From contig JAPSJS010000001.1 of the NCBI GenBank assembly GCA_031178065.1, positions 62,001-126,000 of the forward strand: a stretch of 64,000 bases of DNA. The letters run 5' to 3'. How positions within the stretch are numbered: position 1 is the stretch's first letter; the number at the start of each line of letters is the position of its first letter. The notes under the pieces are model-generated. The model worked only from the letters and a program-made list of their open reading frames with translations, did not search any database and had not been told where the DNA came from. This stretch comes from Altererythrobacter sp. Its GTDB lineage: Bacteria > Pseudomonadota > Alphaproteobacteria > Sphingomonadales > Sphingomonadaceae. Below are positions 2,803 through 12,100 of the stretch, one piece after another. The position numbers and the translations under genes are program-made.

Positions 2803-3798
2803 TCAGCGCGTCGCGAAGACGACGCTGTCCTTGAGCTCGTAGGTCTGGCCTGCGCCGAGCGAGAGCGGCGACGACAGCGGTGCCCAGGCCACCTGTTCGC
2901 CGTCTAGCACCAGCGCGAACCCCGCCAGGGATGGCGGGGCCTTGGCCGTGTTCGGCCCGGTCACCTGCAGGCTGTCGGTCGCAAGCCGCAACGTCCCACG
3001 CCGCAGCACCAACGGCTCGCCCGTCAGCCGCACCGGCGGAACGCCCGGGATCTCCGCACGCCCATTCGAGAATGCCAGTTCGACCTGGTCGGCATCGGCC
3101 ACCAGCTCGAGCAGCTCCGCCGCCGTCAGCGGCACGCTGTCTGCAGGAATCTTCACAGGCCCGAACGCGCGCGGCCGCGACGCTTCCTTGAGCTGCTCGA
3201 CCTCGTTGCGCGTCTTCGTCGTTGCGCCCTTCTGCGCCGACAGCGACCGTTTGAAGGCGTCACGTTCGGCCGTCAGCGCCTCGATCGCAGCATGATCCTC
3301 TCCAGCGTGCTTATGGGCAAGTTTGACGGCATCGTTGGCCTGCTCGAGCTCGAGGTTCAGCCGCTCGTTTTGCGACTTCAGTTTGTGGAGCTCCTCGGCA
3401 TCGACCTCGAGCGGCTTGAGCAGCGGAGCGAGGCCGTGAACGATCGACCGGAACAGCGCGTCTTTGAACTGCTGCTCGGGGGGCAGCTTGTCGAAGTCGA
3501 CCATGCACGGATGCAGCTTCTTCTTCGCGTCCTTTTTCTCGCCGTACTTCCACCCCTCCGCTTCCTTCGCCTTGCGCCAGTTGTCGTGGCTCGCGGCGTC
3601 GCCGGCATCCGGGTTCGCGAGATGGAATTCGACGCCGTTGACGGCCGACGACACCTGCCAATCCGGGGCATCTGCCCACTCGGGCTGACCGTCATCCCCG
3701 AGCGATCGGCAATACGCAGCGTTCGCAGCATGCGCCGCTGCAGCTATCGCAGTGACCGCCTGCATGCCGAGCGTAATCTGTTCCTCTTTACCGGACAT
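2803..3798 (-). CDS. Phage protein with RyR domain and coiled coil
   Basis: A 331-residue protein. Residues about 30-120 (DAPDWQVSSAVNGVEF, HDNWRKAKEAEGWKYGE, KKLHPCMVDFDKLPPEQQFKDALF) carry the hallmarks of the RyR repeat first known from ryanodine receptors and also found in phages: the W-KAKxxxGW core and the LP-xxQ-KD tail. Residues about 135-205 are a heptad-like coiled coil, followed by a beta-rich C-terminal domain. The start at 3798 is chosen because AAGGA stands 8 bases upstream of it; an in-frame ATG at 3819 lies inside a REP-like repeat. It sits between terminase and portal genes. Role unknown. Confidence 0.75.
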   Translation of the reverse strand: MSGKEEQITLGMQAVTAIAAAAHAANAAYCRSLGDDGQPEWADAPDWQVSSAVNGVEFHLANPDAGDAASHDNWRKAKEAEGWKYGEKKDAKKKLHPCMVDFDKLPPEQQFKDALFRSIVHGLAPLLKPLEVDAEELHKLKSQNERLNLELEQANDAVKLAHKHAGEDHAAIEALTAERDAFKRSLSAQKGATTKTRNEVEQLKEASRPRAFGPVKIPADSVPLTAAELLELVADADQVELAFSNGRAEIPGVPPVRLTGEPLVLRRGTLRLATDSLQVTGPNTAKAPPSLAGFALVLDGEQVAWAPLSSPLSLGAGQTYELKDSVVFATR

Positions 3799-3812
3799 AT
3801 CTCGTTTCCTTT

Positions 3813-3842
3813 CCGTCATCCCCGCGACGGCGGGGACCGAGC
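3813..3842. repeat. REP-like palindrome inside the prophage
   Basis: The plus strand reads CGTCATCCCCGCGACG then GCGGGGACCG, an imperfect palindrome matching the CGTCATCCC-N-GGGATCG class of chromosomal repeats; a double copy occurs at 28,033-28,114. Its outer end lies directly upstream of the Shine-Dalgarno of the RyR-domain gene and supplies an in-frame ATG. A chromosome-type repeat inside a prophage suggests mobilisation into it after integration. Confidence 0.6.
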
Positions 3843-4115: not shown

Positions 4116-5642
4116 TTATCCTCCTGCAAAAACATCGAAATTGCTGTCGAGCCGCACCGTGGCGCCGCCGCGCGGCGTGCCCCGAATGTCGGCAATGACG
4201 TGTTCGCCCTCCAGCGCGGCGTACTGCTCGCCGTCGCAGACGTGCGTGTGGATCGTGTCGGCGATCTCGAGGTGCCCGCGGGTCTCACCGTCCGAGATCT
4301 CCGCCTTGCGGTAGTGGTATCCGCCCAGGTGCCCGCGAATGAGATGCTTGCAGCTCTCGTCGACGGCGTAACCGTCGCGCTCGCCCATCGCCCGCCAGAT
4401 CGCTTCGTTGCGCAGCGCCGCCTTGTTGGTTTTCGCGCGGTGCACCGGCAGGCCGAGCGCCTTGCGGAAGGCCTTGATCCAGTCGAGCTCCGAATCCTCG
4501 CGGTCGCTCGCCGCCCACGCCGCCGGATCTCCGACGACACGGATCATGTCCGGGTGCAGATCGAAGAAATGCTCGTTGAGCATCGCCTTGCACATCTGCC
4601 CGAAGGCGGTCGGGCCGATCTTCGCCAGCGTCTTGCCGTCTTCGCGGAACATGACCGCCTCGCGCAGCGTGCGGAAATGCCCCATCGTCGTCCGCTGACT
4701 CGCGACCGCGGCCGCGAACAGGCCCTGGTCGAAACCTAGGATCAGCTTGCGCGAGCGGTCCCATTCGAGCTTGCGGACGTGCGTGCGGTAATCGAACTGG
4801 GGGTTGACCGGCTGCCCGTGCTGCATCGGCACGAACTTGTTGTCGATCATGCGCGCGACGTAATCCGGCCGGTGTTTGTTCGCCGCTGCCTGCACCTGGT
4901 AGTAGCCCTGCGGCAGGTTGTGCAGGTTCTCCGCGTCCGGTTCGCGGCCGCCGGGTTGGATGAAGACCTCGAGCAGCTCGCGATCGCCGAGCACTTCGCG
5001 CAGATCGTCGGTCATCTCGCCGAGGTTCTTCTCGATCGCGAGGCCGTAGACCCAGTTGTCCATGTACGGCGCGTTGAGCGAGAGGATTATCTGCGGATCC
5101 ACCATCATCGCCGCGTCGATGCCGCCGCGGCCGACGCGGCCGGTCAGGAACGCCAGCAGCTCGGGCGGCTGCAGGTCGGCTTCGTCGACCATCACGGCCG
5201 CGACCTGCCAACCGCGGCAAGCTTCCTCGACGCTGCGGTCGCCGATCGCGCGGAATTCGATCTCGAAGTCGACCACGTCGATCGCGTTGCCGTCTTCGTC
5301 CTCGGCGAGGATCAGCTGCAGCCGGTGCGTGTAGGGCGCCTTCCAGGTAAACTTGCCGAGCTCTTCCGGGAACACGTCGAACCAGCTGGGCAGCGTGTTT
5401 TTCTCGATGTTCGGATAGGTCTCGCGGATCACGCCAACGCGCGCCTTGCGCCACAGCACCCCGCGCCCGTCGACCCGACCTTTCTGCCGCTTCGCGACCT
5501 CGACCAGCGCCCGCAAGGCCGTCATCGTCTTGGCCGAACCGACCGGCCCGATGATGATCTTGATAAACGCCCGCGACAGCAAAAACGCGTCCGAGATCGG
5601 ACCCGGCGAGTTGAGAACGCGGGTTTCGATTTCGAGGCTCAT
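4116..5642 (-). CDS. Terminase large subunit (DNA packaging ATPase/nuclease)
   Basis: A 508-residue protein. Walker A is GPVGSAKT at residues 32-39 and Walker B is VAAVMVDEAD at 147-156. The C-terminal nuclease half has acidic motifs LILGFDQG near residue 305 and VVGDPAA near 375. This is the packaging motor of the podovirus-type large terminase family, which pumps DNA into the prohead through the portal and cuts the concatemer. Length is normal for the group. Its ATG overlaps the stop of the ASCH gene (ATGA), so small terminase, ASCH protein and large terminase form one translationally coupled set. Confidence 0.9.
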   Translation of the reverse strand: MSLEIETRVLNSPGPISDAFLLSRAFIKIIIGPVGSAKTMTALRALVEVAKRQKGRVDGRGVLWRKARVGVIRETYPNIEKNTLPSWFDVFPEELGKFTWKAPYTHRLQLILAEDEDGNAIDVVDFEIEFRAIGDRSVEEACRGWQVAAVMVDEADLQPPELLAFLTGRVGRGGIDAAMMVDPQIILSLNAPYMDNWVYGLAIEKNLGEMTDDLREVLGDRELLEVFIQPGGREPDAENLHNLPQGYYQVQAAANKHRPDYVARMIDNKFVPMQHGQPVNPQFDYRTHVRKLEWDRSRKLILGFDQGLFAAAVASQRTTMGHFRTLREAVMFREDGKTLAKIGPTAFGQMCKAMLNEHFFDLHPDMIRVVGDPAAWAASDREDSELDWIKAFRKALGLPVHRAKTNKAALRNEAIWRAMGERDGYAVDESCKHLIRGHLGGYHYRKAEISDGETRGHLEIADTIHTHVCDGEQYAALEGEHVIADIRGTPRGGATVRLDSNFDVFAGG

Positions 5643-6163
5643 GACCCGAAGCCCAGCCCGAGCTGATTATCTGGCACCGCGACGGCCTTCGGAGCCGCCC
5701 GGTTGGGCCAAGCGCGCATCCATGGGAGAGGCTCGGCAGCGGCATCGCCACGCTTCGCGCGCTGCTCCCAGAAAAACAGCCCCAGGGAACCCGGAACCGC
5801 GATCGGATCGACCGCTTCCGGGCGCTCCAACTCGAGCGCCCAAGGACCGAAGAACCAAGGGCTGCCACCGTCTTTCGCGATCCCCGTGACGTAGACCGAT
5901 CCGATGATTGCGCCGCGCACCAATACATCAGGGCGTGGGCATTCCACTCCGATGCCAACCATGAAATCCCGGGCGTGCTCGTACTCGTCCCGCGTCATTC
6001 CCTTCGCGGCGTGGATCGCGATTTTCCTGCCCACAGCCGCAGCGATGCCGCCCTTCGTAATCGCCAGCTTCGTGCGGTTTTCGACGTCTTTCCCGCCATG
6101 GACGATCGCCCATGCCCAAGGCTGGCGAACCGACAGCGCGTGACCAGGCAAAAACCCGCTCAT
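5639..6163 (-). CDS. ASCH-domain protein
   Basis: A 174-residue protein with the diagnostic ASCH/PUA-like opening (ALSVRQPWAWAIVHGGKDVENR) and the later beta strands GRKIAIHAAK and RGAIIGSVYVTGI. ASCH domains bind RNA or act on nucleotides and nucleosides; the cellular partner here is unknown. It is inserted between the two terminase genes with ATGA overlaps on both sides, so it is produced with the packaging proteins. The C-terminal 40 residues are Pro/Ala-rich and poorly conserved-looking. Functions to consider are RNA binding during packaging or action on a modified nucleoside. Confidence 0.85.
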   Translation of the reverse strand: MSGFLPGHALSVRQPWAWAIVHGGKDVENRTKLAITKGGIAAAVGRKIAIHAAKGMTRDEYEHARDFMVGIGVECPRPDVLVRGAIIGSVYVTGIAKDGGSPWFFGPWALELERPEAVDPIAVPGSLGLFFWEQRAKRGDAAAEPLPWMRAWPNRAAPKAVAVPDNQLGLGFGS

Positions 6164-6756
6164 CGTTCATCCTCCCCATCTTCGCGGAACGGCAGAACGC
6201 CCTTCACGGCGCCGCCGAGCGTGCTGCCGCCGACGCTGCGCATCTCGCCGATTTGGTTGATCAGACGGACGCCCTTGATCGTGTGATCGACCTGCACCGG
6301 CTGTTTGCCGTGGAAGTACGGCGCCAGCGTCTCGGCTACGCGGATCCGCATCGCCCTGGCCTCGGCGAGCGATAGGCGTTTCTTGACTGGATCGACCTGT
6401 TGGCTGCGCGCGATCATCGCCTCTTCGCTTTCGGCGAGGATCTTCATCATCGCGACCAGCGGATCCGGCCCGAACTGCGACAGGTACTTGAGCGTGTCGG
6501 CCGTGCGCCGGTTGCGCACGCCTGCGGGCCGCCCCCTCTTTCGCTTCTCGCGAGCGTGACGGAGGACCGTGAGCGGCTTTGCGCCCTCTCCGAGATCCTC
6601 ATAGGCCTCGGCGGCTTCCTCCGCCGTGATCGGTTCGAGGTCGAGCTGCTCGGCCTCGCGTTCCTCGGCCGCAGCTTCGTCGAGCAGACGCTTGCTCTCG
6701 GCCGCGGCGTCCTCCAGCGCGGTCTTTCCACCGGGATCTTCGTGGTCAATTGACAC
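6160..6756 (-). CDS. Probable terminase small subunit
   Basis: A 198-residue protein starting at GTG 6756, chosen because GGGAGG stands 7 bases upstream. The N-terminal 75 residues are acidic and helical; residues about 78-90 are strongly basic (REKRKRGRPAGVRNRR, an AT-hook-like GRP core), followed by a helical region that ends in a Gly-rich tail. Small terminases recognise the pac or cos site and hand DNA to the large subunit. The assignment rests on position immediately before ASCH and the large terminase and on the DNA-binding character. The frame is open further upstream (to 6870) but that part looks non-coding. Confidence 0.65.
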   Translation of the reverse strand: MSIDHEDPGGKTALEDAAAESKRLLDEAAAEEREAEQLDLEPITAEEAAEAYEDLGEGAKPLTVLRHAREKRKRGRPAGVRNRRTADTLKYLSQFGPDPLVAMMKILAESEEAMIARSQQVDPVKKRLSLAEARAMRIRVAETLAPYFHGKQPVQVDHTIKGVRLINQIGEMRSVGGSTLGGAVKGVLPFREDGEDER

Positions 6757-7147
6757 GGCCGCGCCTCCCGCTAGCTTGGCCGGCCCGACGCAGCGCCGAT
6801 CCCTCCAGGAAGGCTCTCTCACCCCGACCCGTGGCGCGATTCCGGCGCTGGTGCGGCCTCGCTCCCCCACCCCGACCCGTGCCGCCCGCTTCTACGTTGG
6901 CGAGCCTCCGGTCAGCGGTGCCTTGCCCTGAATTCAGGATCGACGATCCAAATTCCGACACGGTCGCGCGCCGTGGTGCAAGAGCGCGAGCTCCGCGCAA
7001 TGGGGGCAAAGGGGGGTGCCGCCCCGATCGGCCGAGGGGGGCCCTCTCCTGGCCGGCGCGCCGCAGCCTGACAGGCTGACGACGACACCGGAAAACCGCT
7101 GCGATGCCAAGGCCTTGTGCCTTGCCTTCCAACATCGCCCTTCCAAC

Positions 7148-7405
7148 ATGGCCGACTCCGCGCCCCGAAAAGCGCAGAATTCCGCCATTCCGGCCGACCA
7201 GCTGGATCTCGACCAGGCCGACCCGATCGAGCCCGGCGGCCACCCCGAAAACCCGGAAACTTTCGCCGGCCCTCGGCATCAAGAGACCCCAGATCGGCCG
7301 ATCGGCGAGGCCGGCGCGCAGCTGCGCGGCATTTCCACCCGCCAGAATATTGCCAACCCGCTGAAATCGCACGGCTTCACCGGCCGCGCCCTCGGCGGTT
7401 CCTAG
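7148..7405 (+). CDS. Possible small orphan protein
   Basis: An 85-codon frame on the strand opposite to its surroundings, starting ATG 7148 (or GTG 7016). It has a coding-like pattern, with C/G in most third positions and less GC in second positions. Product is polar, Pro/Asp/Gln-rich (DQLDLDQADPIEPGG) and resembles nothing I know. No good Shine-Dalgarno precedes ATG 7148; GTG 7016 has a G-rich stretch. Its stop codon lies inside the left arm of the GGAACC dyad. It could equally be chance openness in GC-rich DNA. Confidence 0.25.
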   Translation: MADSAPRKAQNSAIPADQLDLDQADPIEPGGHPENPETFAGPRHQETPDRPIGEAGAQLRGISTRQNIANPLKSHGFTGRALGGS

Positions 7406-7645
7406 CTGGAACCGCTGGGAACCCTCTCTGGAACCTCTATCTATCTGATTTAGATAGAGAAGTTCATGTGGTTCCACGGTTCCAAGGATTTCCCCTCGCG
7501 TATATGCGCGCGCGGCCACGCACACGGGCGCACGCGCATCACGCGAGGCTTGGGCGCGGAACCGTTGGAACCGCGACGATTGGCTAGTGATTTCAAGAGG
7601 TTGTTGGTTCCGCGAACGGTTCCAAGCGGTTCCAGCTAGGAACCT
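7396..7645. repeat. 250 bp dyad of twelve GGAACC/GGTTCC hexamers
   Basis: Twelve copies begin at 7397, 7408, 7418, 7430, 7470, 7478, 7558, 7567, 7606, 7618, 7628 and 7639. The outer spacings mirror each other exactly (11, 10, 12 on the left; 12, 10, 11 on the right), and the inner pairs (7470/7478 and 7558/7567) and an innermost inverted pair CCTCGCGT/ACGCGAGG (7494-7501, 7541-7548) share the same centre near 7521. The outer arms (7397-7423 and 7618-7644) are nearly identical inverted copies. Two spacer segments (about 7436-7469 and 7573-7605) do not match; the left one holds its own 9 bp hairpin CTCTATCTA/TAGATAGAG. Such an array suggests a replication origin or multi-site protein complex. 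Confidence 0.85.
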
Positions 7646-7828
7646 GCCCCCGGGCCCGATCGGCAAGCCAAGATGGCGCAACAAGCTTTTGGCAAGCCAA
7701 CGGGTCGGGGTCAAGGGTCGGGACGCGGAGGCAGCGCCACACAATCGTCGCGGCAGCGCAAACGTGCGAGTAGAGCGCTCGCTGTTCGCGTCCGCTTCGC
7801 GGCCGCTGCGAGCGCGCGTTTTCTGTCT

Positions 7829-7910
7829 TGACATGGCGGTTTGCCGCCATGTCAGGGCCCATGAATGGGCCGGGGTGAGAAGCGAGATATGTTCCACATT
7901 TGAGAACATA
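7829..7910. promoter_or_regulatory. Three stacked palindromes, likely operators
   Basis: In 82 bp there are three perfect inverted repeats. The first has 11 bp arms TGACATGGCGG/CCGCCATGTCA around TTTG (7829-7854). The second has 7 bp arms GGCCCAT/ATGGGCC around GA (7856-7871). The third has arms TATGTTC/GAACATA 9 bases apart (7888-7910), the same 7-9-7 geometry as the CCGAATA operator in the cro/cI region. They lie just past the end of the helicase-type gene. The first could fold in RNA; the third looks like a protein-binding site. No promoter could be fixed with confidence. Confidence 0.55.
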
Positions 7911-7929
7911 ATCGCGGGTCGGGGAGCGC

Positions 7930-9954
7930 TCATTCAGCGCCCCCTTTCTTCTGCGCCAGCACCCACGCCGCGGCCTCTTCCGGCCGGCTAGCATCGGGCA
8001 GCTCGCTCTCGTCGACCACGGCGGCCAGCGGCACCAGTACGGCGCGCTGGCTCTGGTGGCCGAACTTCACCTTTGGCCCGTCGATCGCCGACAGCTGCCA
8101 GCCATCGCCCTTGAACGTCGTACGGGCGAGCGATTGCCGCCACACGCCGTCCTGCCACGTCTGGCCCTCGTAGATCTTCGCCAGGGCCTGATGCTTGCCG
8201 GCGACGGCCAGCCATATCGGATCGTCCTTGTCGAACGCCTCCGTGCCCCAGCGGGCCGCTTTGACGACCTTCCCGGCCCGATCCCGCTCTTCCGGATACC
8301 AACGTGCCTTGACGAGCTTGAGCCCGAGCTGCTGCAGCCGTGCGGCCGCCCGGCTGTCACCTTCGCGATCGCCGTTCTGCAGCAAGGGCGCGCACTCGTA
8401 GGCGATCGCCTTGCCGATCCAGCTGCCAAGCGATTCCCGCTCGTCGCCGCCGCGCGCCTGCACCTGGGCGGTGAGGAGATGATCGATGCACGCCACGTGA
8501 TCGGCGGTCGCCTCGGAGATCTCCGCCATCTTCTCCGGCCGGCACATGTCGGCCCAGTGGGCGACTTCCTCGTCGTCCGGCAGGCCGTCGTCCATCTCTT
8601 CCCAGTCGAAGAGCGCGAGATCCGCGCACGCCAGCAGCGTACCAAACTGGTCGCAGGCGCGCGGTTCGTGGCCGACGTCGGCCAGCGCCTGGTGATAGCG
8701 CGCCTTGGTCGCCTCGAGGCGCGCCCACCCGTCGACCATGCGGCGCTGCAGCTTGCGGCCGAGCTCGGCCAGGTGCCAGTCGGCCAGCACCGGCGGCGGC
8801 GCGCCATCCTCGAACGGCTGCAGCTCGAGGATGCCGAGGCGGCTGCGATCCTGCGCCTGCAGGGGCGGGATATTGATCGAGGAGAACCAGAAGCACGATC
8901 GCAGCGTGAATTCCTGCGCCGTCCCGTCCGCGCTGCCCCTGTGCGCCTTCTCGCCGCTCGAGGCGACGCGCGCGAGCTCGATCACGTCCTGCACGCGCCG
9001 GTTGTCGGCGCTCGCCTCGATCTCGTCGAACAGCACCGGTACGGTGGAGTTGCGCAGCGTCTGGCGGATCGCGGCCGCGCTGGCGTTGCCCGTGCGGAAC
9101 AACCCCTCGCCGTAGAGCTGGTGAACCACGCCCTCTTCGCCGTTGAGCGTCGACTTGCCGGTGCCGCGGCCGCCCGTGATCCAGATATTCGGCCGCCACT
9201 TGAGCGCGCCGCCGACCATGCCGGCGCAGATCGCGCCGAGCAGCAGCCGCACGTCGAGCGTCTTGCGCTTCCAGTTCCACGTGGAGAGCAGCCGCACCAG
9301 CTGCTGCGCGGCCTCGGGCCCGGCCCGATCGGGCTGCGGGCGCGGCAGCTTCTCGCCGCCAGGATAGACGTGCACGCCATGCAGGCCGCAGTCGATCCAC
9401 GTCCACCCGCGTATCGTGCCGTCGAGGTTGTGCACGCTGGTCAACAGCTTGTCGCCGCAGTGGAGCACCAGGCCGTTGTTCTCGTGCCGGTGGGCGCCGT
9501 TGCCGCGCATCTTGTTCGCCGCGGTGAAGATCCCGCGCCGCACGCATTCCTCGATCAGCGCACGCGAGGCTTCGGCCTGGTCGAAGCCAATGATCTCGCT
9601 TTCCTTCACGCACACCCGGTTCGCGCCGCGGCCTTCGAAGACCGGCTTCGACCACTGCGGGAAACTCTCCTCGAGCCAGTCGCTCGCGGGCCCGAACAGC
9701 GCGATCAGGCTGTTCTTGCCGTGCCGGTTGCCGGCCTCGAGGCCGACCAGCTGCTTGTTGAAATCGAGGTAGTAGCAGGCCTGGCTGCCACCGATATCGC
9801 TCGACATGCCAAGCGGCACGATCGGGCACCCGGGCGGGAACGGCGGCCGCTCGGCCGCCCGCTTCGACGTCGCGCTGCCCGGCGCCACGAGCTGGGGCGC
9901 GTTCTGCGGATGGTCGAGCGCATCGCGGATCGGGTTGGGGGCCGGATCGCTCAT
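7930..9954 (-). CDS. Phage replication helicase-type ATPase
   Basis: A 674-residue protein starting at ATG 9954, which overlaps the preceding stop as ATGA. Walker A GGRGTGKST is at residues 261-269 and Walker B-like VPVLFDEIEA near 308-317. Together with the long N- and C-terminal extensions, this fits the phage and plasmid DNA replication ATPases that act as helicases with a separate toprim primase. The neighbouring ParB-like and toprim genes form one operon with it. The C-terminal 200 residues are Trp-rich and may be a DNA-binding region. The stop lies in an imperfect hairpin (7921-7943) without a U-run. Confidence 0.75.
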   Translation of the reverse strand: MSDPAPNPIRDALDHPQNAPQLVAPGSATSKRAAERPPFPPGCPIVPLGMSSDIGGSQACYYLDFNKQLVGLEAGNRHGKNSLIALFGPASDWLEESFPQWSKPVFEGRGANRVCVKESEIIGFDQAEASRALIEECVRRGIFTAANKMRGNGAHRHENNGLVLHCGDKLLTSVHNLDGTIRGWTWIDCGLHGVHVYPGGEKLPRPQPDRAGPEAAQQLVRLLSTWNWKRKTLDVRLLLGAICAGMVGGALKWRPNIWITGGRGTGKSTLNGEEGVVHQLYGEGLFRTGNASAAAIRQTLRNSTVPVLFDEIEASADNRRVQDVIELARVASSGEKAHRGSADGTAQEFTLRSCFWFSSINIPPLQAQDRSRLGILELQPFEDGAPPPVLADWHLAELGRKLQRRMVDGWARLEATKARYHQALADVGHEPRACDQFGTLLACADLALFDWEEMDDGLPDDEEVAHWADMCRPEKMAEISEATADHVACIDHLLTAQVQARGGDERESLGSWIGKAIAYECAPLLQNGDREGDSRAAARLQQLGLKLVKARWYPEERDRAGKVVKAARWGTEAFDKDDPIWLAVAGKHQALAKIYEGQTWQDGVWRQSLARTTFKGDGWQLSAIDGPKVKFGHQSQRAVLVPLAAVVDESELPDASRPEEAAAWVLAQKKGGAE

Positions 9955-10967
9955 GCGCAGTCTCGCAGCGAGCACCACTTGCTCGCGCACGCTTGCGCCT
10001 CGGCCGGGCGCACAAGCCTGTCGCATTGTTCGCAGAACTCGGCCTTCGCCTTCTTGCGAAGCTCATACCTGTCGAGCGACGACCCGGTTCGCGCAGGCCC
10101 GCGCATTACAGGCCAGCGGGGCTTCGCAACGATTGGTGCAACCGCCTTGACCGCGTCGCCTTCCCACACATTGAGCACGGCTTTGGCGGCCGCCTCTGGC
10201 CGAGAAACGGTCGGGTCGGCACTCAACAGAACGATCTGGCGGCGCAGTTCCTCCTGCCCCAATCGCCCGAGCTTGGCGGTGAAATTGGCAAATCGTGCCG
10301 GCACGAATGCGCGGCTTTCTGCACACTCCTTGACGCACACCGCGACGATGCCAGGATAGATACTGCCAGCGTAACGTAGCACCTGCCCGGCAAAGGCGGT
10401 GGATAGGCACTGCAGCGCCTCCGCTGCGACATGGGCACCATACCTCTTCCAGGTGGCTTCGATCCCGCCGATATTCCCGATCATTCCGGGCTTCCACCCT
10501 GCGGCCGTCATATGTGGCGCGACTTCCAGGCCGGCAGCCTCGATCGCGTTGCTGATCGCCACCGCCTGTTCATCGCCTGCCGCGACAGCCGCCTTGAACA
10601 GATCGATCTTCGCCAAGGGGCGACGCCGCTGGTTCAACCGGACAAAATTGGCCGCCTCCGTTGCCGCGTCGCCGTAGTTGCCGACGACACAGGGAAGATG
10701 GGTGATATCGCCTCGCAGCCGCGCCGCCTCGAGCCGATGCTGCCCGTCGATCACGAACAGATTTCCGTCAGGGCGCCGCGAAACCACCAGCGGGAGGCAG
10801 AGGTCCCAGTTCCACTCACGCGCGATCGATCCAATCAGACGCTGCGAATCCTCACCCTCGATCGATCGCTGATAGGTTGGATCGATCGCCAGTTCGTCGG
10901 GCGCCATGAATTGCAATGCGGGCAGGCGCCCGCGCGCCGGTGCGAACTTGTCTGCTGTCTTGCTCAC
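9951..10967 (-). CDS. ParB/sulfiredoxin-fold protein with C-terminal Cys cluster
   Basis: A 338-residue protein starting at GTG 10967 (GTGA overlap with the toprim stop). Residues 18-75 carry a ParB-like core: LAIDPTYQRSIEG and LFVIDGQHRLEAARLRG, the latter matching the GxHR signature. The C-terminus has CEQC followed by C and WCSLRDC, a probable zinc site. ParB-fold proteins bind or nick DNA, and some use CTP to slide along it. Its place between primase and helicase genes suggests a replication or origin-binding role; the GGAACC array next to the operon is a candidate target. That link is inference. Confidence 0.8.
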   Translation of the reverse strand: MSKTADKFAPARGRLPALQFMAPDELAIDPTYQRSIEGEDSQRLIGSIAREWNWDLCLPLVVSRRPDGNLFVIDGQHRLEAARLRGDITHLPCVVGNYGDAATEAANFVRLNQRRRPLAKIDLFKAAVAAGDEQAVAISNAIEAAGLEVAPHMTAAGWKPGMIGNIGGIEATWKRYGAHVAAEALQCLSTAFAGQVLRYAGSIYPGIVAVCVKECAESRAFVPARFANFTAKLGRLGQEELRRQIVLLSADPTVSRPEAAAKAVLNVWEGDAVKAVAPIVAKPRWPVMRGPARTGSSLDRYELRKKAKAEFCEQCDRLVRPAEAQACASKWCSLRDCA

Positions 10968-12100
10968 GCCCGCCTCCGCTTCTCGGCCGCGCGCTCGGAT
11001 ATCGCCAGCGCCTGCAGCCATTCGTTGATGTCCTTGACCGGCAGCCCCGCGACCTTCTCCGGCGGCAGCACCAGCTGCACCTGCCTGCCGCGCGCCTGTT
11101 GCTTGGCGATCGCGCGCTCGAGCGTGGCCTGCGCCTGCTCGCCGGAATCGCGATCGGCCACGATCACCATCGGGCCGGCGCGCGGCGGCAGCACGATCGC
11201 GCCCATGTTGCCGAGAGAGATCGCGCACAGGATCCGCGCGTCGGGCTTCATCATCCGCACGCACACCGCGTCCTCGGGCCCCTCGGTCACATAGACCGGC
11301 TCGCCCTCGGGCATCGCGGCCATGGACTTGCGGCTCTGGCCCTTGTTGATCGGAATGAACCCGCCGCCCATGTTGCCGAGCACCATCTTCGGCTGCGCGG
11401 TCGCGAGCTTGCGCCAGCGCCCTTCGTCCTTTTGCAGGTAGATCCGGTGCGTCCCGATCTGCCGCCCCTGCGGATTGAAGATCCCGCACAGCAGCGCCGG
11501 CACCTTCACCCGCTCCGCCTTGCACCAGACTTCGTCATGAAACCGCAGGCTGCCGGGCCACTGGCCGCCGGTCGGGCTGTCCGCCGCACCGGGGCCGAGG
11601 CCGCGCCCGCGCAGATAGGATTCCGCCGGCGTCCCGGCGATCGGCACGCCCTGCAGGAACAGCGACCGCGCCCCACGCGCCTTGGCCTCGCGCTCGACGG
11701 CCAGATCGGCCTCGCGCCTCTCCGCGCGTGCCTGCGCCTCGGCGGCGCGCTTCGCCCGCTCGGCCTGGCTCATAGTGGCCCCGGGAACGAAGCGATCCTC
11801 GATCCCGAGTTGCTTTTTCGCCCAGTCGACCGCGGCGCGCATGTCGCCGCCGAACAGCTTGTGCCGCGCGAGGTCGAGGATATCGCCCCGCTCCTCGCCG
11901 CTGCGCGCGTTGCCGTAATCGGTCCAGCGGCCGATCTCGGCGCCGGCCAGCGTCACCGCCAGGCTGCCGCTCTTGCCGGTGTCGTCGATCCCGCTCGCCA
12001 TCCAGTAATTGCCGCTGCGATGCCCGTTCGGCAGCAGCTCGGCCGCATAGTGCGCGGCGTTCCGGTTGAGCCGATCGGCGATCTCCGAGACTTCGATCAC
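10964..12100 (-). CDS. Toprim-domain primase
   Basis: A 378-residue protein. An N-terminal region (residues 1-110) resembles the zinc-free N-terminal part of phage and plasmid toprim primases, followed by a highly charged linker (residues about 108-140, KRAAEAQARAERREADL). The toprim core has VYVTEGPEDAV (catalytic Glu) and MVIVADRD (Asp-x-Asp). It would synthesise RNA primers for phage replication. ATG 12,100 overlaps the upstream stop and its own stop overlaps the ParB-like GTG, so the operon is translationally coupled. No zinc-finger Cys set is visible. Confidence 0.85.
   Translation of the reverse strand: MIEVSEIADRLNRNAAHYAAELLPNGHRSGNYWMASGIDDTGKSGSLAVTLAGAEIGRWTDYGNARSGEERGDILDLARHKLFGGDMRAAVDWAKKQLGIEDRFVPGATMSQAERAKRAAEAQARAERREADLAVEREAKARGARSLFLQGVPIAGTPAESYLRGRGLGPGAADSPTGGQWPGSLRFHDEVWCKAERVKVPALLCGIFNPQGRQIGTHRIYLQKDEGRWRKLATAQPKMVLGNMGGGFIPINKGQSRKSMAAMPEGEPVYVTEGPEDAVCVRMMKPDARILCAISLGNMGAIVLPPRAGPMVIVADRDSGEQAQATLERAIAKQQARGRQVQLVLPPEKVAGLPVKDINEWLQALAISERAAEKRRRA

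Follow-up and report, generated by a model that had tools for sequence, protein, structure and literature searches.

A mirrored array of twelve short sites beside an initiator-type helicase gene, a putative replication origin of a sphingomonad prophage

Phage P4 carries annotated crr and ori sites, which we take to be bound by its alpha protein. At P1 pac and lambda cosB, short terminase sites occur together with IHF near the small terminase gene (terS). In PICIs, as described in parts of PMC6092414, primase, initiator and origin follow one another in that order, sometimes with terS coming next, and two sets of iterons flank an AT-rich region. In SCC elements, Cch2 binds repeats directly downstream of its own gene via its C-terminal domain, and the putative SCC origin consists of three 5-nt iterons within a 23-bp direct-repeat region (both according to sections of PMC7581432).

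Here we analyze a stretch of 64,000 nucleotides from an Altererythrobacter sp. contig (hereafter the window, whose numbering is used throughout), in which a prophage bears a compact array of hexamers between a helicase gene and a gene in the position of terS. We conclude that this array is very probably a replication initiation element of the P4/SaPI type, composed of two head-to-head six-site units that are probably read by the C-terminal domain of the helicase.

Sites and symmetry of the array

The array sits between the helicase gene and the small-terminase-position gene, which is followed by the gene for the large terminase (TerL) and a podovirus-type portal gene; a Toprim primase gene and an ORF with a ParB-like/DUF6551 domain lie upstream of the helicase gene in the same operon. 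These domain matches agree with a preliminary description of the locus, which had placed a toprim/ParB-like/helicase operon beside the array.

4116..5642, minus strand: large terminase, phrog_2 (profile match)
6160..6756, minus strand: small-terminase-position gene, 198 aa, RGRP AT-hook-like motif, phrog_15261 (terS by position only; GTG start placed by alignment)
7930..9954, minus strand: initiator-type helicase, predicted to be SaPI Rep/Cch-like (AF2 model and structure comparison), upstream of the array in transcription order
9951..11525, minus strand: ORF with ParB-like/DUF6551 domain, the previously proposed binder, unsupported as reader (domain matches)
10964..12100, minus strand: Toprim primase, DUF7146 and Toprim_3, part of the replication module (domain matches)

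The small-terminase-position protein of the window has no Pfam match, and its family has scattered weak ones only; its AF2 model (pLDDT 76) gave no hit in either PDB or BFVD at E ≤0.001. The profile phrog_15261, of unknown function, was matched in 29 of 51 small-terminase-position proteins. A weak match of the HMG-I/Y profile to the protein of the window (E 0.17) was also seen, as was a match to the RyR domain (PF02026) in a prophage protein encoded at 2803-3819, between large terminase and portal.

A site search of the window located twelve GGAACC/GGTTCC hexamers within 7397-7644, lying 285 bp past the helicase stop codon (median 374 bp in relatives). They are arranged as follows.

Hexamer starts (+, GGAACC): 7397-, 7408+, 7418+, 7430+, 7470-, 7478-, 7558+, 7567+, 7606-, 7618-, 7628-, 7639+ (site search)
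7397..7644, no strand: dyad of 12 sites in two six-site units that mirror each other, putative replication origin (site positions and conservation in relatives)
7397..7483, no strand: terS-side six-site unit, read outwards as a a b b b a (with a for the inner-pair orientation), steps 8,40,12,10,11 (site positions; the P4 crr unit has the same order)
7558..7644, no strand: helicase-side six-site unit, likewise a a b b b a when read outwards, with steps 9,39,12,10,11 (site positions; compared with P4)
7484..7557, no strand: central spacer in which purines and pyrimidines alternate, for up to 18 nt without a break (7497-7514)
7436..7469, no strand: AT-rich terS-side spacer, GC 0.29, candidate unwinding element
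7591..7603, plus strand: IHF-like site, one mismatch, in the helicase-side spacer

Such sites number 36 in the whole window, compared with a mean of 30.1 after shuffling, corresponding to about 0.12 expected per 250 bp, and mononucleotide shuffles of 6901-7950 (n=200) gave a maximum of two sites in 255 bp. The count of twelve and the expectation of 0.12 in the preliminary description were thus reproduced, as was the exact mirroring of the outer spacings (11,10,12 and 12,10,11). All six mirror pairs are oppositely oriented. Their start positions sum to 15041 in five cases and to 15042 for the 7470/7567 pair, so that the single centre previously ascribed to the pairs holds exactly for five of the six and is missed by 1 bp in the remaining one. 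Among 20,000 random placements of twelve oriented sites in 305 bp, the best reached three exact mirror pairs. The CCTCGCGT/ACGCGAGG pair reported earlier is likewise present in the sequence.

Conservation of the layout in relatives

Relatives were gathered by large-terminase searches among viral contigs and genomes belonging to sphingomonads or, in a few cases, to other bacteria, one collection scan contributing the best 80 of 522 confirmed loci, and by a helicase search, which contributed the best 80 of 199 loci; arrays were located by a blind scan for clustered six-letter words. An array was called in 86 of 123 loci with TerL of the terminase-based set, many of the negatives being short contigs; the spurious calls L064, L095, L100 and L114 were removed from the 86, and the call in L093 was corrected. 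In many relatives the array lies upstream of the terminase genes; arrays span about 240-270 bp and are built from different words, for example GGAACC, GCAACC, GGGAAC, GAAACA, AGAACC, CACAAC or GTAGCA. A tally of 51 distinct top words in 110 loci counts shifted readings of one site several times and does not equal the number of specificities. The layout with the array between helicase and terminase, which had been proposed as a search target, recurs: a strong array was present within 1.5 kb of the terS start in 143 of 155 loci that contain the genes for the helicase and for both terminase subunits, a figure that includes repeats, as several loci are pieces of the same contig (e.g. L005/L141 and L013/L054/L163). 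The distance from the last counted site to the terS start had a median of 86 bp and a maximum of 1207 bp (110 loci). The helicase gene was more than 1 kb from the array in 39 of 107 loci, in some cases 3-7 kb away, and was not upstream in three.

The site geometry was derived from 71 arrays with at least three mirror pairs, reduced to 65 after removal of identical TerS ends. In these, inner sites lie 38-40 and 46-48 bp from the centre and outer sites at 88-90, 98-102, 110-112 and 119-132 bp. The aabbba order is exact in 40 of the 130 half-arrays of these 65 loci, with median steps of 8,41.5,12,11,10.5, the rest being variants. The preliminary description had asked for conserved hexamers and spacing in homologous prophages; the spacing is kept, and the word itself differs. 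At the level of DNA, a search of the phage collection with window 7001-8000 gave no match, and array DNA was matched in one of 98 genomes, that of the window itself. No report of such an array was found in searches of open-licence papers.

The spacers and the centre have a recurrent composition as well. Averaged over 65 arrays, purine-pyrimidine alternation is 0.80-0.86 at the centre and 10 bp to either side of it, and an AT-rich valley lies on the terS side (mean GC 0.30-0.41 at +50 to +80). The centre of the relatives has a mean GC of 0.56-0.74 within 20 bp, the AT-rich stretch being found in the side spacer instead. The alternating centre, e.g. at 7497-7514, could possibly be a Z-DNA or easily melted element. 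An IHF-like site with at most one mismatch occurs in the helicase-side spacer of 35 of 66 arrays, compared to a mononucleotide-shuffled mean of 1.1, and in the other spacer of 21 of 66, compared to 3.5 in shuffles. GC skew keeps its sign across the array, DnaA boxes are not enriched at arrays, and no second cluster resembling the separate ori of P4 was seen in the stretches of 110 loci (at most three copies in 160 bp outside the array).

The helicase matches 23 phage records, of which seven were inspected. MT835534, one of these, has both helicase and terminase relatives and carries an array. Five of six further helicase-matching records contain clusters, which are mirrored in MT835930 (which also has a TerS relative) and in Bdellovibrio phage phi1422 and less regular in Serratia MQ-4, Pseudomonas ZRG1 and Synechococcus S-H1; the ZRG1 cluster precedes an annotated minor tail gene. 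In Bordetella phage PY223, which has a helicase relative, no array was found. Phage phi1422 contains twelve exact GGTAAC sites out of twelve in a perfect mirror, the first of which starts 11 bp past the helicase/primase gene gp23; its annotated terS, gp43, is 7.2 kb from the array. The array centre in phi1422 has a GC of 0.21, and the match to the helicase covers query residues 115-593 and leaves out the C-terminal domain. Both the phi1422 and the P4 elements are overlooked by an exact-word unit detector. According to part of the genome report (PMC3391216), phi1422 was assembled as a circular contig and its authors take the genome to be circularly permuted.

The site word and the helicase

We compared the word with the proteins encoded nearby, using word classes that were assigned by hand and excluding single-member classes from the class tests. 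Among 29 close taxa, word class was associated with the similarity of the helicase and of the primase (r=0.32 for both, a value reached in 0 of 2000 permutations), weakly with that of the portal (0.145, 60/2000), and not significantly with that of TerS (0.08, 211/2000) or TerL (0.07, 268/2000). In partial tests on the same taxa, the association with the helicase given TerS persisted (0.31, 0/2000), whereas that with TerS given the helicase fell to 0.03 (590/2000). Helicase and primase are hardly separable as trackers of the word (47 and 27 of 2000). On trees of 30 taxa, word class changes seven times for the helicase, eight for the primase, ten for the portal, 11 for TerS and 12 for TerL. The word is shared in 42 of 59 pairs with a similar helicase and dissimilar TerS and in 43 of 169 pairs with the reverse relation, these pairs being overlapping, not independent and inclusive of near-duplicates. 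When all 58 taxa are included, the proteins cannot be told apart by covariation (TerS 0.587, helicase 0.585, portal 0.574, TerL 0.514).

A window scan over 110 loci with less than 90% helicase identity (559 pairs, overall identity controlled) peaked in a C-terminal segment of the helicase.

8044..8073, minus strand: C-terminal beta-hairpin, helicase codons 652-661 (698-aa ORF), best tracker of word identity, candidate recognition wing

The peak, at residues 652-659, reached z 8.72, a value attained in none of 300 within-group label permutations (largest, 8.00); the second helicase peak was 4.82. Elsewhere, the best windows reached 7.03 in TerL, with a smaller effect than in the helicase (0.060 vs 0.135), 5.48 in TerS and 4.02 in the primase. 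Identity within the hairpin was 43% at an overall identity of 58% among 15 disjoint nearest pairs whose words differ, and 66% at 67% among 29 such pairs sharing a word. Of four GGTTCT clades that group separately, three have a threonine at residue 661, which no other taxon shows. Column-by-column covariation within the close group did not point to the hairpin in particular. In a predicted structure, residues 652-661 of the ORF (628-637 of the model) form a beta-hairpin after two short helices. Taken together, these patterns of covariation suggest that the C-terminal domain of the helicase is the likely reader of the word.

The other DNA-binding candidates of the preliminary description fared less well. 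The similarity of the ParB-like protein showed an r of 0.13 with the word (136/1000 permutations) in the 15 testable taxa, in which the helicase reached 0.24 (37/1000), and its profile was matched in at least 39 loci of the terminase-based set and at least 40 of 78 helicase-based loci, where many contigs are cut. The HTH protein did not emerge as the binder either, the CI-like HTH showing no significant association with the word in 27 taxa (r=0.05, 207/1000).

As a separate observation, the loci L083 and L088 have TerL proteins about 92% identical and different words; the helicase gene lies downstream of terS there, and the genes after terS are about 53% identical.

The AF2 model of the helicase (pLDDT 90.8) was compared with known structures. 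In VIA-align, the SCCmec Cch chain 5dgk_B came first (Z 16.0, rmsd 6.0 Å over 426 residues, model residues 46-653), followed by MCM chains, which at Z of at most 15.5 over about 250 residues are formally tied with Cch and have a nearly equal match of the ATPase core. SaPI5 PriRep1 (7om0/7ola) was among the matches listed, with Z 14.2. Foldseek placed viral PrimPol chains first, with NrS-1 and PriRep1 with dsDNA among the matches listed. On the basis of this model, the helicase falls into the SaPI Rep/Cch structural class.

Relation to known origins and alternative readings

The closest counterpart of a half-array is the crr of P4. As annotated, crr has two units; if one unannotated site with two mismatches is included per unit, each has the order a a b b b a and steps of 9,43,11,7,14. 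In the P4 record these type-1-like sites, at 4377 and 4557, complete the aabbba order, and other two-mismatch sites, at 4337 and 4435, do not recur and were left uncounted. The order is that of the halves in the window, the steps resemble the medians of the exact-order half-arrays of relatives given above, and crr follows closely on the alpha gene on its downstream side. In site order (a a b a a a), the ori unit of P4, with steps 10,43,22,11,10, agrees with the phi1422 halves (steps 8,64,14,10,9). P4 differs in having two tandem crr units and a separate ori, whereas the window has one inverted dyad, and in the annotation of its alpha protein as one primase of 777 aa, whereas primase and helicase are separate genes here. 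P4 alpha matches PriRep1 by sequence (E 1.3e-7); in hhalign, the helicase family aligned with alpha in the P-loop region only, with a probability of 16.8%.

With SaPIs and PICIs the locus shares the order primase, helicase, origin, two sets of short sites around a spacer and, probably, a C-terminal reader, as far as these are set out in parts of PMC7581432 and PMC6092414, and the fold of SaPI PriRep1 is related to that of the window helicase. PICIs have their AT-rich region between the two sets, whereas the centre of the window family is alternating and its AT-rich stretch lies in a side spacer. SaPIs and PICIs, whose SaPI origins are compared here by description only, are satellites, whereas the window-type element is found in phages with head and terminase genes. 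SCCmec Cch resembles the helicase as its first structural match in VIA-align; the putative SCC origin differs in being without a 12-site dyad. Two site sets around a spacer, a P4 crr-like unit and a position downstream of the helicase gene are thus common to the array and the origin class, and the AT-rich region between the sets of PICIs is lacking in the window family and present in phi1422. This last feature limits the assignment to the P4/SaPI origin class, which is putative. The preliminary description knew of no named phage element like the array. In part this has to be amended, as the six-site half matches the P4 crr unit and the plan resembles SaPI/PICI origins; in part it stands, as one compact dyad of two P4 crr-like units, with a word that changes together with the helicase, appears from sequence comparison to be a new arrangement.

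We suggest the following course of events. Two P4 crr-like units, placed head to head about 74 bp apart, would form the cis-acting initiation element of the prophage, its word being read by the C-terminal domain of the adjacent helicase, probably with the assistance of IHF-like bending in the spacers. The helicase would assemble on both halves, most simply and probably as two oppositely facing hexamers, and melt an AT-rich or alternating stretch; replication would then start, with the Toprim primase laying primers. A more specific version is conceivable, to which we would give about one chance in three: each site would bind one C-terminal domain, six sites making up one ring and the mirror image setting the opposed ring, so that the DNA would encode a platform for double-hexamer loading, P4 crr would have this module in a tandem arrangement, and the word would shift by small changes in one helicase hairpin.

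Another reading starts from the position of the array. In a packaging site (pac or cos), DNA would be cut at the centre with the small terminase bound to the hexamers to either side, in analogy to PacA at P1 pac and gpNu1 at lambda cosB. The array is found just upstream of terS even where the helicase gene is kilobases away, and position alone favours terS; moreover, IHF-like sites lie between inner and outer sites, and the protein in the TerS position has the RGRP AT-hook-like motif. This was our first hypothesis, built on the terS position and the likeness to P1 pac and lambda cosB. We abandoned it because the word class follows the helicase rather than TerS and the phi1422 array is far from terS. 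Among the 29 close taxa, word class is unlinked to TerS or TerL similarity, with the residual association vanishing once the helicase is given; word specificity here is thus not terminase-linked, and in this the array differs from P1 pac and lambda cosB, as it does in phi1422, where it adjoins the helicase/primase gene. Seven TerL relatives (BcepC6B, Mx8, MEP301, Rollin, RHph_TM3_14A, Ss1 and Pun_Y3), all absent from the 23 helicase-matching records, show no comparable array in the fetched stretches; a six-copy GTAGAA cluster beyond TerL in Pseudomonas Rollin (score 7.9) was not counted as one. The ends of a few contigs (L006, L008, L010, L064) are estimated to lie 300-500 bp downstream from where the centre is expected, and no contig was noticed to end at the centre itself. 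On this analysis, a packaging site seems highly improbable. The chances of a late-control hub, at which a regulator bound to the array between early and late operons would switch on terS and the structural genes, are slimmer. The array does occupy the gap between two gene blocks, and in 36 loci with a gap of more than 400 bp before terS the commonest ORFs of at least 60 aa in it are on the strand opposite to terS. Nevertheless, the CI-like HTH does not track the word, a two-fold symmetry would be unexpected for one-way control of transcription, the phi1422 array is not upstream of terS, and the ZRG1 cluster precedes a tail gene.

That the array is an origin or centromere bound by the ParB-like/DUF6551 protein, as the preliminary description had considered, we regard as the least probable of the readings, even though the ParB-like ORF lies within the replication operon and P1 parS, which combines IHF with short boxes, offers a parallel. 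The weight given to it reflects a profile matched in at least 40 of 78 helicase loci (and at least 39 of the terminase set) and a tracking test of only 15 taxa, in which the word class showed no association with this protein and the helicase did better. For an origin read by the helicase, the observations that fit poorly are that in the terminase-bearing phages the array stays near terS while over 1 kb separates it from the helicase gene in 39 of 107 loci, that GC skew does not change sign there, and that covariation over 58 taxa is undiscriminating. In addition, the best TerL window has z 7.03, the helicase can hardly be told from the primase, close-group column tests do not single out the hairpin, and the helicase relatives L211, L212 and L218, like PY223, have no detectable array. 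The P4 alpha alignment is limited to the P-loop, the phi1422 match excludes the C-terminal domain, P4 crr has the uncounted sites at 4337 and 4435, and the stretches of the 110 loci show no P4-like second cluster. The role of replication origin, already proposed in the preliminary description, is nevertheless the best supported, by the covariation of word and helicase, the class of the helicase, the linkage in phi1422 and the likeness to P4 crr.

If the array is an origin read by the helicase, a large, mostly uncultured group of temperate phages would have a recognised replication origin and would be linked to the replication of P4, SaPI and SCC elements. It would also provide dozens of natural initiator-origin pairs of nearly fixed geometry and different target words, with which one could test in what way an initiator helicase comes to recognise a different origin and whether each half, with its six sites, positions a single ring. 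The data suggest that a related replication plan is widely present in tailed phages.

A different repeat arrangement was noticed in BcepC6B (L133/L134, at the record junction), where there is no 12-site array and a short dyad of GGGACGATA repeats lies upstream of terS. The direct GGGACGATA repeats and their inverted copies flank an AT-rich stretch, and the adjoining gene is annotated as DNA polymerase/primase.
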